Source: Deltaproteobacteria bacterium (lineage in GTDB: Bacteria; Bdellovibrionota; Bdellovibrionia; Bdellovibrionales; Bdellovibrionaceae). From it: a stretch of DNA of 43,892 nucleotides. The DNA lies in NCBI GenBank assembly GCA_017302835.1, contig JAFLCC010000022.1, positions 1 through 43,892 on the forward strand. The letters run 5' to 3'. Shown piece by piece: positions 21,650 through 42,881 of this stretch. The notes under the pieces were generated by a model. The model was not told the origin of the DNA, did not search any database, and saw only the letters and a list, made by a program, of their open reading frames with translations. The position numbers were made by a program, and so were the translations under genes. Within the stretch, counting starts at the first letter, position 1; every line of letters begins with the position of its first letter.

Positions 21650-21756
21650 TATTACCTCTTAAATAATATAAATAAAATATGAGCTTATGTCCTCTACCAT
21701 AGGGATGCCATACTGTCGAGAAAATATTCACCCATGCTTTAAAAGAAATGGGAACT

Positions 21757-22154
21757 GGTTTTGCTATAAGCCGGATTCTGTCTAAATGATAAAGTCCCAA
21801 AAGTTTTCTCTATCATTTTCGATGATTATTTATCTGGGAGTTTTGTCTCCAAAACCCTCGAGCGATCCTACCCGAAAGCTTCACCCGAGCCGAGCTACTA
21901 ATGCTTCCCTATTTGATCTTGCTTCATGCAGAGTTTGGCTGTTTTCACTCCAGCAGCTCCCTTGAAAACTCCCGTTCCCGTTCTCAAGATTATAGCCCTG
22001 GATATTCTTTCTGTTCCACTGTTCCTCGCCTTACAACGGAGGGGCGTTACCCCTTGCACTGCTCTTTGAAGTCCGGACTTTCCTCCCTTGCTGACTTACC
22101 AAATTGATAAATCAAAACGAAATTTCGTAAGCAAGAGCAATCACCCGCAAAACC
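21757..22154 (-). ncRNA. rnpB: RNase P RNA, bacterial class A-like
   Basis: On the minus strand the universal 5' core GAGGAAAGTCCGGACT is followed by the AACAGAAAGAATA/GGGTAACGC-type internal elements and the 3' core ACAGAATCCGGCTTATAG. The ends pair as the P1 helix: GGTTTTGC at the 5' end (22154-22147) with GCAAAACC at the 3' end (21764-21757). The length is about 400 nt. It is the catalytic subunit that trims tRNA 5' leaders. Minor length error at both ends is possible. ORF-like stretches inside it on the other strand are not genes. Confidence 0.95.
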
Positions 22155-22160
22155 TGAGCC

Positions 22161-38574: not shown

Positions 38575-39090
38575 TCAAGAGAATCTATTTTCTAAATTTC
38601 GATTTTGTTGTTTTATTAGCCCACTACGAGGTCGATTTTCCTCCACTGTGTTTGCGCCTGTCACATATGTCACTAACTGGTTAACCATGAATTGATTTTC
38701 TTCAACCAAAGCCTCCATTATATGTCTCATACTTAAAAACGCAATCGGAGCGTCTCCTTGAAGCACAGGCAAGTGACGAATTTTCATTTTAACCATGACC
38801 GCCATACATTCTTCCAATAGATAGTCAGTAGTTACAAAAACAACCTTATGGCTCATGAAATCCTTCAATTTTGCATTCGGTTCTACAATCGCTCGGTTTA
38901 AAGTGTATGCCCGCGCGAAGTCTCTTTCTGAAAAAACTCCAACGACTGCAGCCTTATCCATGACCAGCGAAGCCCCGATATCAGATTTTTCTAAAAGTGC
39001 CAGCGCCTCATCGACTGATGCGTTCACGTCAATCAAAGGTGGATGGCCGAAGTCTCTTTGTTTCATTAAATCAGATACTGTTCTCTTCAT
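38575..39090 (-). CDS. Two-CBS-domain protein in hibernation operon
   Basis: 171 residues with two CBS motifs. The first (about 8-65) has PPLIDVNASVDEALALLEKSDIGASLVMD and VVGVFSERDFARAY; the second (about 78-135) has VVFVTTDYLLEECMAVMVKMKIRHLPVLQ. Such pairs bind adenosine nucleotides and sense energy state. The gene overlaps the end of the HPF-like gene by 20 bases and is the third member of the Balon-like/HPF/CBS operon, which suggests it senses low energy in dormancy. The target of regulation is unknown. Confidence 0.88.
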   Translation of the reverse strand: MKRTVSDLMKQRDFGHPPLIDVNASVDEALALLEKSDIGASLVMDKAAVVGVFSERDFARAYTLNRAIVEPNAKLKDFMSHKVVFVTTDYLLEECMAVMVKMKIRHLPVLQGDAPIAFLSMRHIMEALVEENQFMVNQLVTYVTGANTVEENRPRSGLIKQQNRNLENRFS

Positions 39091-39463
39091 AAAAGTCCTC
39101 CTTCTGTTTCGATTTTCTTGTTTGTAGAAGTTTTCGTTCTAAATTTCTATTTTTTATCCTTCTCTTATCACCGAAGCGGTTAAGCCGCTCTAGAGCGTGA
39201 ACAGAGACATCCCCCAACGCTTTGTATAGACTCGTTGCCGACTTTTCCAAAACAACTCCACCATATTTTTTTCCAGTAATTATCAGCTTCACCTTAAACA
39301 AATCCGGACCTGGCTTGAATTGCGAGTTATCCATGCGCAAGGTGAAAATGAGTTTGTGCTCCTCAAGATCTGGAAATCTATCCTTTATTGCTTGGATACG
39401 ATCATGAACCGCTTCTTTCGCAAGTTCAGATTCATCAAGGTCTTTAAAAATAATTCGGATCAT
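39071..39463 (-). CDS. HPF/RaiA-type ribosome hibernation factor, short form
   Basis: 130 residues with the S30AE fold pattern: IRIIFKDLDESELAKEAVHDRI, then a strand with FTLRMDNSQFKPGPDLFKVKLII, and the helix SATSLYKALGDVSVHALERLNR. The extra C-terminal dimerisation domain of long HPF is missing; instead there is a basic tail (RRIKNRNLERKLLQTRKSKQK). It should bind the decoding centre of the 30S subunit. It overlaps the Balon-like gene by 4 bases upstream and the CBS gene by 20 downstream. Confidence 0.8.
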   Translation of the reverse strand: MIRIIFKDLDESELAKEAVHDRIQAIKDRFPDLEEHKLIFTLRMDNSQFKPGPDLFKVKLIITGKKYGGVVLEKSATSLYKALGDVSVHALERLNRFGDKRRIKNRNLERKLLQTRKSKQKEDFYEENSI

Positions 39464-40608
39464 ATAGCACTCCTTTCAATTTTCTGATTGTGATTTAAAT
39501 CAACGGTATATAATTTTGACAGCTCAGAATCAGGACGTTCTAGAATTGCCAAAATTGGTCTGCCTTTTGGAATCTCTTCGCGTGATGCAACCACCACCTC
39601 TCCACCTTGAATCAAAACCTCCTGAGCCAGATCATCAAGTATATCATCATCCTCATGATTAAGATGGGCTGGATGAATAAAAAGCTCGCCAGATTTTTTA
39701 TCGATTTTTCCAAAGATTTTGATTCCGTCAGCAATTATTAGTTTTCTTACTTTTCCTTTTATTGCGGCTTTCGCGATTTGAAATATATTCTTATTTGCCA
39801 AGTTCAAATCTTCAGCTTGATAAAATTCCATAAGACCCTGCTCAAGATCTTTTTTTGCATCCTTCATTAAGGAAGATCTAATTTCAGAGCAAATTTCTGA
39901 TGCTCTTTCCTGGTTAAAATAAGGCCAAATCGGTTGATTTCTTGTATTTTGGTAACAGCAGCTCTTAAGGAAAACACTGGTCAATTTCTTTTGGCCAGCC
40001 ACAAAAAGAGGCGGCTTTAAATCCTTTGTTAAACTGAATAGCCATTCGTTCAGCCATTCTATGGTCTGGCTATACTTCAGACCATTCAATCGGCGTTTCT
40101 TTAGGTCATCGTATGTATCTGGGTCAGTGGAATTCTGAAGTATCGTAGGAAAAATGATTGTGTCTAGCAAATTGAAGCTGTTTTGGTTACCGTAATATAG
40201 GCTTGCCGAACCCTCGGAAATTCCCAAAAATAAAAATTCTCGGTCAACCTGTATCCATCTCAGGAGGGGCTTTACATGAAAGCTTGTTGCGATCACGCAA
40301 GTTTTTTCGACAGGAACAGGAAGACCGAGAATTCGAAATGAATTTTCATTCCTAAAAAGGCCGACATTGCCTTTTAAGGTTTTAAGCAATTTGGTATCCT
40401 CGATAGCATTATGAATTGGCTCAACAAAACTCACCATAGCATCCTGATTCATTACAGGTGCCAAATACTCATAGGCAGCTTCTAAAGTTTCGCGAAGCTG
40501 CCGTCTTAAATGAAAAATATTTTGGTCGTTGGTAAGATAGGCCGTTAAGTGTTGTTCGTCTTTTGATTCAATCAGGGGTTTAAGTATACTCATTTTTGAA
40601 GCAAGCAT
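39460..40608 (-). CDS. baeRF/Balon-like ribosome hibernation factor
   Basis: 382 residues resembling the bacterial eRF1-like (baeRF) family, whose member Balon (AOC03_06830 of Psychrobacter) binds the ribosomal A site during dormancy. Family-like features include an N-terminal helical pattern (RRQLRETLEAAYEYL), NVGLFRNENSFRILGLPVPV, the SFHVKPLLRWIQVDREFLFLGISEGSASLYYG segment and a C-terminal IQGGEVVVASREEIPKGRPILAIL. No GGQ motif is seen, as expected for a hibernation factor rather than a release factor. It is the first gene of an overlapping operon with an HPF-like and a CBS protein, which strongly supports the role. The family call is from memory of its pattern, not a search. Confidence 0.75.
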   Translation of the reverse strand: MLASKMSILKPLIESKDEQHLTAYLTNDQNIFHLRRQLRETLEAAYEYLAPVMNQDAMVSFVEPIHNAIEDTKLLKTLKGNVGLFRNENSFRILGLPVPVEKTCVIATSFHVKPLLRWIQVDREFLFLGISEGSASLYYGNQNSFNLLDTIIFPTILQNSTDPDTYDDLKKRRLNGLKYSQTIEWLNEWLFSLTKDLKPPLFVAGQKKLTSVFLKSCCYQNTRNQPIWPYFNQERASEICSEIRSSLMKDAKKDLEQGLMEFYQAEDLNLANKNIFQIAKAAIKGKVRKLIIADGIKIFGKIDKKSGELFIHPAHLNHEDDDILDDLAQEVLIQGGEVVVASREEIPKGRPILAILERPDSELSKLYTVDLNHNQKIERSAI

Positions 40609-40896
40609 ATGTCCTCCTTAATTACTGAGTTGAGAGGAATTCCCAACTCATATGACTCTACGGAATTTTTATGAATTGTTAAAATAGATAAATAATATGT
40701 GTACTATTGTTTAATACTATATATTAAATATGATCATAATTTTAGCTGACATTGGATTGCCCAATAAGGACTCGTTGGTATCTCTCGTCTTGAATTGAAT
40801 CGTTTAAATGTATACATAGCAATATATTTATCGATTTGAACGATGTTATAAAATGATAGATAGTCATATAAAAATATATAAAGGAGAATTTGAATC

Positions 40897-41955
40897 ATGA
40901 TACTTTTCCCGTTTGCTGACTATTGGTGGTTTTATGCAGGATTCACCCTGTTTGTTTTGTTATTGCTTGCTCTGGACCTTGGGGTGTTTCATAAAAAAGC
41001 ACATGAAGTCTCTCTCAAAGAATCTTCTATTTGGACGACCATTTGGATTAGCCTTGCCCTGTTTTTTAACTACCTGTTCTATTTGTATGCGCAATGGCGA
41101 TTTTCAACAGATGAGAAATACCTTTCTATTGCAGGTTTTAACCCTGAAGCACAGGCGAAGTCGACAGCTCTTGAATTTCTAACCGGCTTTGTGATCGAAA
41201 AATCCCTTGCTGTTGATAACATCTTTATTTTTGCAGTTGTTTTTGGTTATTTTGCAATTCCCAAGATGTATCAACACCGAGTTTTATTTTGGGGAGTTCT
41301 CGGCGCACTCATATTTAGGGCAATTTTTATTGGTATGGGGTCCCTTTTGATGCAATACGAATGGGTTGTCATTTTCTTTGGTGTATTGCTTATCGCAACT
41401 GGCATTAAAATGTACTTCGCCGGTACGGAACAAAAAAATCTTGATGAAAGTATTATCGTTCGTGGCCTCAAAAAAATCTTTCGTATTCATCCAAAAATTG
41501 AAGGCCAAAAGTTTTTCCATAGAATAAATGGACTAATCTATGTAACGCCGTTGTTCTTGGCTTTGGTATTTTTAGAGCTGACAGACATAATCTTTGCGGT
41601 GGACTCTGTGCCGGCAATTTATGCGATAACTAAAGAACCCTTGATTGTTTTCACATCAAATATATTTGCGATACTCGGTCTACGATCCATGTACTTTATG
41701 TTAGCCGGAGTTATGGATAAATTTATTTATATCAAATATGGTTTGGCCTCAGTTTTAGTATTTGTAGGAAGCAAAATGGTTTATTTAAATAAAGCTTTTG
41801 GTGGGAAATTTCCGATCAGTTGGTCGCTTGGAATCATTGCCACTTTGATTGGAACTTCGATTGTCATTTCAATTTTGGTGGATATGAAGAGAAAGAAGTT
41901 TAGCATTAAAAATAGTTTAATACTTTCAAAACAAAATGAAGGGAGCCTTTTATGA
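40897..41955 (+). CDS. TerC/Alx-family membrane protein
   Basis: 352 residues from ATG 40897 (AAGGAG upstream) with about 9 transmembrane segments. The TerC signatures are FVIEKSLAVDNIFIFAVVF and FLELTDIIFAVDSVPAI, with acidic residues in the membrane that bind metal. Members export manganese (Alx, MntX-like) and help membrane proteins avoid metal damage. Its stop overlaps the htpX start by 4 bases (ATGA), so the two are coupled. Confidence 0.93.
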   Translation: MILFPFADYWWFYAGFTLFVLLLLALDLGVFHKKAHEVSLKESSIWTTIWISLALFFNYLFYLYAQWRFSTDEKYLSIAGFNPEAQAKSTALEFLTGFVIEKSLAVDNIFIFAVVFGYFAIPKMYQHRVLFWGVLGALIFRAIFIGMGSLLMQYEWVVIFFGVLLIATGIKMYFAGTEQKNLDESIIVRGLKKIFRIHPKIEGQKFFHRINGLIYVTPLFLALVFLELTDIIFAVDSVPAIYAITKEPLIVFTSNIFAILGLRSMYFMLAGVMDKFIYIKYGLASVLVFVGSKMVYLNKAFGGKFPISWSLGIIATLIGTSIVISILVDMKRKKFSIKNSLILSKQNEGSLL

Positions 41956-42881
41956 AAATCGCGAAAAGAGTATTTCTTTTTTTAGCTGTTAACATTTTGA
42001 TTATTGCAACAATGTCGGTAATCTTTTCAATCCTCGGCATCCAGCCTTACCTAGATGCTAAAGGTATAAACTACCAATACTTGATGATCTTCTGCGTGTT
42101 TTGGGGGTTTGGCGGAGCATTTATCTCACTCTCCTTGTCGCGCATAATGGCTAAATGGATGATGGGGGTAAAAATAATTGATCCTCAAAATGCTTCTTCT
42201 GAAATGCTAAGCCTTATCAATCGTGTTCATGGATTTGCTCGCAAGGCCGGTCTCGAAAAAATGCCTGAGGTTGGATATTATGAGTCAGATGATTTGAACG
42301 CATTTGCAACTGGGCCCTCAAAAAGAAGATCCCTAGTAGCCGTCTCGACTGGGCTTTTGCGTAAGATGAGTCAAGACGAGGTTGACGGAGTCTTGGCACA
42401 TGAAGTGGCCCATATAGCAAACGGTGATATGGTCACAATGACGCTTATTCAAGGTGTTGTGAATGCCTTCGTGATGTTCTTGGCAAGAGTAGCTGGTTTC
42501 TTTGCAAGTCAGTTTGTTGATGAAGAAAAGCGCCCTATGGTTCAGTTTGGAATCGTCATTGCGTTTGAATTATTATTTGGAATGCTAGGATTGATTGTTG
42601 TTTCTTCATTTTCAAGACGTCGCGAGTATCGTGCTGATGCTGGGGGCGCAATGCTTTCAACCAAAAGCAATATGATCGCTGCACTTGAGCACCTGAAAGC
42701 GAACACCCAAATATCCCAGGATGAGAACCAGGCAGCCATTGCGAGTCTGAAAATTTCTGGTAAATCCGGTGGTATTCTAAAATTGTTTTCAACCCATCCA
42801 GATTTAGATGATCGTATTGCACGGCTAAGGACTCAGTCCACTTTGGAAAGATTCAAACGCGGAGGTATACAATATGGTTAA
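41952..42881 (+). CDS. htpX: Membrane zinc protease HtpX
   Basis: 309 residues. Two N-terminal transmembrane segments (about 5-28 and 42-65), the zinc motif HEVAH at 150-154 within GVLAHEVAHIANGDMV, two further membrane segments, and the third ligand Glu in SRRREYRADAGGAMLS. HtpX degrades damaged inner-membrane proteins together with FtsH. Coupled to terC, so the operon links metal export and membrane quality control. Ends near decayed DNA. Confidence 0.95.
   Translation: MKIAKRVFLFLAVNILIIATMSVIFSILGIQPYLDAKGINYQYLMIFCVFWGFGGAFISLSLSRIMAKWMMGVKIIDPQNASSEMLSLINRVHGFARKAGLEKMPEVGYYESDDLNAFATGPSKRRSLVAVSTGLLRKMSQDEVDGVLAHEVAHIANGDMVTMTLIQGVVNAFVMFLARVAGFFASQFVDEEKRPMVQFGIVIAFELLFGMLGLIVVSSFSRRREYRADAGGAMLSTKSNMIAALEHLKANTQISQDENQAAIASLKISGKSGGILKLFSTHPDLDDRIARLRTQSTLERFKRGGIQYG

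Follow-up and report, generated by a model that had tools for sequence, protein, structure and literature searches.

Three overlapping genes on the minus strand of the window (the whole stretch of DNA analysed here, 43,892 nucleotides) encode a Balon-family protein, a short HPF-like protein and a protein with two CBS domains. We infer, with good support, that they form a ribosome-hibernation kit of the Bdellovibrionota, and we consider it probable that HPF and Balon act here with a CBS partner under the control of an NhaR-like LysR regulator. The outline of such a kit is already known: two papers, of 2019 and 2024, describe Balon beside RaiA/HPF, the 2024 one also places a Balon near Hrp1, and the HPF-CBS fusion HibA followed in 2026. 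Judged from sequence comparison, what looks new is a Bdellovibrionota branch of Balon without the THRxxP loop and the long middle-domain loop, a rigid promoter common to the Bdellovibrionota Balon operons, and the pairing of HPF and CBS genes in a bacterium.

The operon and its three proteins

The three reading frames overlap by 4 and 20 nucleotides, as the initial annotation had stated, and a strong Shine-Dalgarno sequence was found at each of the three ATG codons (AAGGAGG, AAAGGAG and AGGAGG). No intrinsic terminator was found on the operon strand 3' of the CBS gene. The features of the locus are listed in Table 1. The genome assembly comprises 3.6 Mb in 35 contigs, and a class A RNase P RNA was observed elsewhere in the window (21751-22156 on the minus strand, 208 bits).

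Table 1. Features annotated at the Balon locus, with positions in the window.
Feature	Position	Strand	Remarks
Two-CBS protein, 171 aa	38575..39090	-	Operon gene 3; start codon within the hpf gene
Short S30AE/HPF-like protein, 130 aa	39071..39463	-	Operon gene 2; family profile and fold
Balon-family (baeRF/aeRF1-fold) protein, 382 aa	39460..40608	-	Operon gene 1; profile and fold
Leader hairpin GAGTTGGGAATTCCTCTCAACTC	40627..40649	-	Immediately 5' of the Balon Shine-Dalgarno sequence
Conserved promoter TTTATCTATTTT-N17-CCGTAGAGT, including the sigma-70-like TTAACA-16-TAGAGT	40655..40692	-	One mismatch
LysR-type dyad TATAG-N7-CAATA	40705..40721	-	13 nt upstream of the promoter box; one mismatch to TATAG-N7-CGATA
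TerC/Alx-family metal homeostasis membrane protein	40897..41955	+	TIGR03718, 375.9 bits, above cut-off; divergent
M48 (HtpX-like) peptidase	41952..42881	+	PF01435, E 1.5e-36; 3' of terC

The product of the first gene had initially been described as an eRF1-like protein without GGQ. Neither GGQ nor NIKS occurs in its sequence, and both the profile searches and the predicted fold place it with Balon. Against the NCBIfam model NF052287 (AOC03_06830 family ribosome hibernation factor) it scores 87.6 bits (E 1.1e-24), below the equivalog cut-off of 330 bits, and against Pfam baeRF_family3 it scores 29.4 bits, slightly under the cut-off of 31.5. A profile of 23 relatives matches the Balon of Psychrobacter urativorans (8rd8_B) over the full length (E 1.8e-26, profile positions 6-353). 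The AlphaFold model (pLDDT 89, pTM 0.82) has the aeRF1-like three-domain fold and matches 8rd8_B with an E of 2.3e-21 and a TM of 0.63-0.66. Its five best PDB fold matches are all Balon structures, with aRF1, eRF1 and Pelota ranking lower.

Two loops were found to be missing from the Bdellovibrionota branch in an alignment with the Balons of other phyla. The N-domain loop of the other phyla reads SLYQPTHRxxPxxxQDP, in which we take THRxxP to be the published decoding-centre HP motif of Balon, and its equivalent in the window is TAYLTNDQNIFH---LRRQL, three residues shorter. The long middle-domain loop of other Balons, possibly that of the bL27 trap or lasso, is likewise missing in the clade. 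Despite these losses FHxKPL and the LDD region are kept, and the C-domain aligns through the region that would hold the EF-Tu-binding beta-hairpin. With both loops absent, the exact A-site binding mode of Balon cannot be assumed for this branch. The best fold matches of the model also include mycobacterial Balons, for which A-site binding is documented (PMC10901736), so the missing loops alone do not exclude ribosome binding. The homology, the sub-equivalog score and the lost loops together indicate a Balon-family member on its own branch rather than an equivalog.

The second protein matches Pfam S30AE (PF02482) weakly as a single sequence (E 0.014), its score of 16.5 being below the gathering score of 23.7. 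The profile of its 23-member family matches chloroplast pY (E 3e-5) and the RaiA of P. urativorans (E 2e-4), and the leading PDB fold matches of the predicted model (pLDDT 90) are all HPF, RaiA or pY. By family profile and model, the protein is a divergent S30AE/HPF. The initial assignment to S30AE therefore stands, but the basic tail that had been called unusual does not single this protein out, since the tail motif LNRxGDKxRVKxRxxARK is a conserved feature of the 23-member family. The tail prolongs the last helix (79-128), and the family has the clade motifs MENSPxQAGPDxFxVKL and LNRFGDKxRVKxRxxARK. No C-terminal dimerisation domain of the long, 100S-forming HPF was found in the 130 residues, the model of which ends in one long helix. 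The genome carries two other S30AE genes. Two broken pieces of the HPF-like family with an in-frame stop were also observed (G000:C3:154118-154335), and they are probably a decayed copy.

The third protein does contain the tandem CBS pair that had been proposed for it, the Pfam CBS model matching in two stretches (E 8.7e-18). The first domain has the canonical S-x-x-D motif (GVFSERD) and the second has S-x-x-H (SMRH). Its nearest solved relatives are PDB 4fry (E 6e-20) and 2rc3. The 392-aa chain 9sr9_H also matches and is probably HibA, which is described with 392 residues; since CBS domains are generic, this match is not specific evidence.

A control region shared by the Balon operons

The clade operons share a control region with the layout TATAG-N7-CGATA, 13 nt, TTATCTATTTT, 17 nt and CCGTAAAGT. 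Among the upstream regions of 34 loci, whose relatedness inflates the counts of boxes and dyads alike, the spacer between TTATCTATTTT and CCGTAAAGT is exactly 17 nt in 19 of the 21 loci with both boxes, and the dyad with at most two mismatches occurs in 20 of 27 loci compared with 2.9% of shuffled sequences. The two spacer exceptions are L113 (8 nt) and L118 (18 nt). Both boxes, at any allowed spacing, were found in 31 of 3000 shuffles.

A genome-wide search allowing up to three mismatches returned the second Balon gene of this genome on contig C6 (no mismatch), the Balon gene of the window (one mismatch) and one further site with three mismatches, which is at chance level as a control search likewise gives single matches. 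Although nhaR is gone from the window, the promoter is kept there, and nowhere in the genome other than at the two Balon genes does it exceed chance level; this, too, looks new. Co-regulation is backed by G003, in which the operon has come apart: its CBS-Balon and HPF parts are on different contigs, yet each retains a match to the promoter with four mismatches. A four-mismatch copy was also found at a TM-HPF-SbtA operon without Balon in G043.

LysR-type regulators act through a dyad around -65 and a contact near -35. The dyad and promoter described here are laid out as a LysR-activated promoter, with an NhaR-like protein as the probable activator, and the link to LysR draws on the form of the dyad, its spacing and the neighbouring nhaR genes. 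The TTATCTATTTT and CCGTAAAGT boxes could also be recognised by an alternative sigma factor. The regulators encoded in relatives and at the C6 locus have NF008284 as their best model (E 2.3e-37 and 1.8e-35) and are termed NhaR-like because they fall below its cut-off of 219 bits; no copy of the gene was found in the window. The rigidity of this control region and its conservation in the lineage suggest that ribosome silencing has a switch of its own. No dedicated transcription factor for bacterial Balon operons is described in the hibernation literature cited here.

The leader of the window operon folds at -13.9 kcal/mol with a single-sequence z-score of -2.9. Many relatives have hairpins of differing sequence in this position (mean z -1.4 over 26, from single-sequence z-scores only, the arms being too different to align), and these hairpins are possibly mRNA-stabilising 5' stems.

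Two further candidates were rejected. FliA-type promoters have the form TAAA ... GCCGATAA, and an attack-phase promoter of this type does not agree with the spacing and the CCGTAA box. The yybP-ykoY riboswitch is known for Alx-type genes, and a riboswitch upstream of terC was rejected: Rfam gave no match at this place in L060, L066 or the window, and positions 40500-41000 had none even at E 1.

Gene neighbourhood and alternative readings

The branch comprises 28 Balon genes among 141 genomes of the order, membership being set at 236 bits or more. For 19 of these 28 genes the HPF-like gene is found no more than about 0.5 kb away and in the same orientation (a count from two tables), and this linkage argues that the Balon-HPF arrangement is not due to chance. 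The usual layout in the clade is terC divergent from nhaR - balon - small membrane protein - hpf - sbtA, with TerC adjoining Balon/nhaR in most loci. The window locus is without nhaR, the small membrane gene and sbtA, and the M48 peptidase that follows its terC was also found in several relatives. The second Balon copy of the genome (C6; L060:5349-8611) has a perfect promoter and is accompanied by terC, the NhaR-like gene, a P-II-like gene and a shortened sbtA, an internal part of which is missing relative to Sbt_1; it has no hpf.

The small protein encoded between balon and hpf in many relatives has no Pfam family. Examples such as L061:7059-7490 and L067:3112-3516 have 114-151 aa, one apparent membrane helix and a SCWxKAQSL...W motif. 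A TerC/Alx gene was observed beside Balon in near and more distant Bdellovibrionota (the window, L123, L139 and L147), company that suggests an ion or metal connection. A Pfam scan of the genes beside distant Balons gave TerC in 5 of 44 and S30AE in 3 of 44, and CBS was not among the 25 families listed. In G030 (L092:9564-11891), a gene for a 775-aa protein, PEP synthase-like by sequence, follows hpf in the place of the CBS gene.

It is possible, if doubtful, that the CBS gene is a passenger, with Balon and HPF forming the hibernation unit and the CBS protein serving, for example, metal or ion transport next door. The gene is intact in only two of the 28 clade loci, where its position varies, and it is decayed in two more genomes; its absence from most clade operons and its ready decay make it dispensable. 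An occasional chance neighbour is conceivable with about ten CBS proteins (18 domain matches) in the genome, and the second CBS domain is without the canonical S-x-x-D. However, among 60 related genomes the window CBS protein has its best relative in G014, in a CBS protein that is likewise Balon-linked (109.5 bits); a paralogue on contig C4 of the genome under study comes next (63.6 bits). The order in G014 is promoter - CBS - Balon - small membrane protein - HPF, with the CBS gene first and a 4-nt overlap, so that the gene overlaps its neighbour in both loci. A truncated 76-aa CBS start in G003 and a shorter stub in G005 lie directly behind the same promoter region. The relatedness between the window and G014 and the repeated position argue against a chance neighbour, and the G014 gene together with the two stubs points to a recurrent, fast-lost part of the operon, a pattern that looks new as well. 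The existence of an HPF-CBS fusion in archaea also speaks against a mere passenger.

We regard it as improbable that the Balon branch is a non-catalytic ribosome-rescue or clearance factor (Dom34-like) instead of a hibernation factor. This would agree with the absence of the N-domain and middle-domain loops and with the Dom34-like relief of stalled ribosomes that Burroughs and Aravind proposed for baeRFs (PMC6514570), but the linkage to HPF is persistent, the hpf gene has the same promoter even when separated, and the fold search ranks Pelota and eRF1 below the Balon structures. The special link to a non-growing attack phase that was suggested initially is weakened, and a role as an attack-phase module of predatory life appears very improbable. 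In favour of such a role are the membership of the genome in the Bdellovibrio family and the lack of replication in attack-phase cells (PMC3627812). Against it, the Bdellovibrio genus group (g6) is represented by at least 24 genomes, of which only G033 and G070 were found to carry the operon, and the promoter looks LysR-controlled in a neighbourhood with an ion or pH flavour.

Predicted mechanism and relation to known systems

In the preferred reading of a ribosome-hibernation operon, the HPF-like protein is predicted to occupy the path of mRNA and tRNA on the small subunit of an idle ribosome whose A site would be filled by the Balon-family protein. The CBS protein probably forms a dimer, which would have four CBS domains; it would bind an adenine nucleotide and either modulate the assembly or become part of it, and by analogy CBS and HPF would correspond, as separate proteins, to the two modules joined in archaeal HibA. 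Transcription is expected to be activated by an NhaR-like LysR regulator through the conserved dyad and promoter. Because nhaR is missing beside the window copy, the regulator would have to act in trans, encoded at the second Balon locus on contig C6. The inducing signal may be Na+, pH or ion stress, since NhaR, TerC/Alx and SbtA as neighbours suggest that ions or pH, and not starvation alone, are involved. A co-expressed hibernation kit with a nucleotide sensor, as the initial annotation had it, is borne out insofar as genes of the Balon and HPF families and a CBS gene stand in one operon with a shared promoter, but its outline is not new.

The operonic association of baeRF proteins with HPF was described in 2019 by Burroughs and Aravind (PMC6514570). 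The likeness to the present locus lies in the occurrence of baeRF with HPF in operons, whereas the main text of that paper does not mention a CBS gene (0 occurrences), and no description of a shared control region was seen there. In 2024, Balon genes were reported to adjoin raiA most often and Balon and RaiA to be present on the same ribosomes (PMC10901736); the co-occupancy cited in the initial annotation is a published one. The window Balon shares with the known Balons (P. urativorans A0A0M3V8U3, NF052287; mycobacterial Msmeg1130/Rv2629) the three-domain aeRF1-like fold, the absence of GGQ/NIKS, a full-length profile match and an adjoining HPF/RaiA gene. It differs from them in its two missing loops, its score below the equivalog cut-off and its Bdellovibrionota-specific promoter and neighbours. 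Similarly, the HPF-like protein resembles RaiA/HPF (S30AE, PF02482) in its profile match to pY and P. urativorans RaiA, and differs in its score below the Pfam gathering score, its own clade motifs, the long basic C-terminal helix and the lack of a dimerisation domain.

In archaeal HibA, described in 2026, a CBS module that binds AMP is joined to an HPF/RaiA domain within one protein; the same paper describes Dri as CBS modules blocking the ribosome (PMC13324472). Both HibA and the window pair an HPF/RaiA module with a CBS module. HibA is however one fused archaeal protein with four CBS domains, whereas the window has separate bacterial proteins from genes overlapping by 20 nt, with two CBS domains and a Balon in addition. 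Hrp1, which we take to be a two-CBS protein, offers a further likeness in that a Balon gene lies near it, with the difference that no overlapping HPF gene is described there and that promoter and lineage are not those of the window. The gene concerned is a single mycobacterial Balon gene (PMC10901736). Our literature search found no description of hibernation operons of Bdellovibrio.

A bolder version of the preferred reading, which we hold to be rather unlikely, is that the Bdellovibrionota possess a dedicated hibernation switch in which the NhaR-like LysR activator controls essentially only Balon/HPF operons. In the same version, CBS and HPF of some members would form a two-piece bacterial equivalent of HibA, through which nucleotide status would act on a Balon variant holding the A site without the usual decoding-site loop.

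The presence of the rigid promoter at only the two Balon genes of the genome provides a direct handle on the signal for ribosome silencing. The bacterial HPF-CBS gene pair parallels archaeal HibA and would make nucleotide control of hibernation testable with separable parts, and a Balon lineage without the decoding-site loop tests which contacts Balon truly needs.
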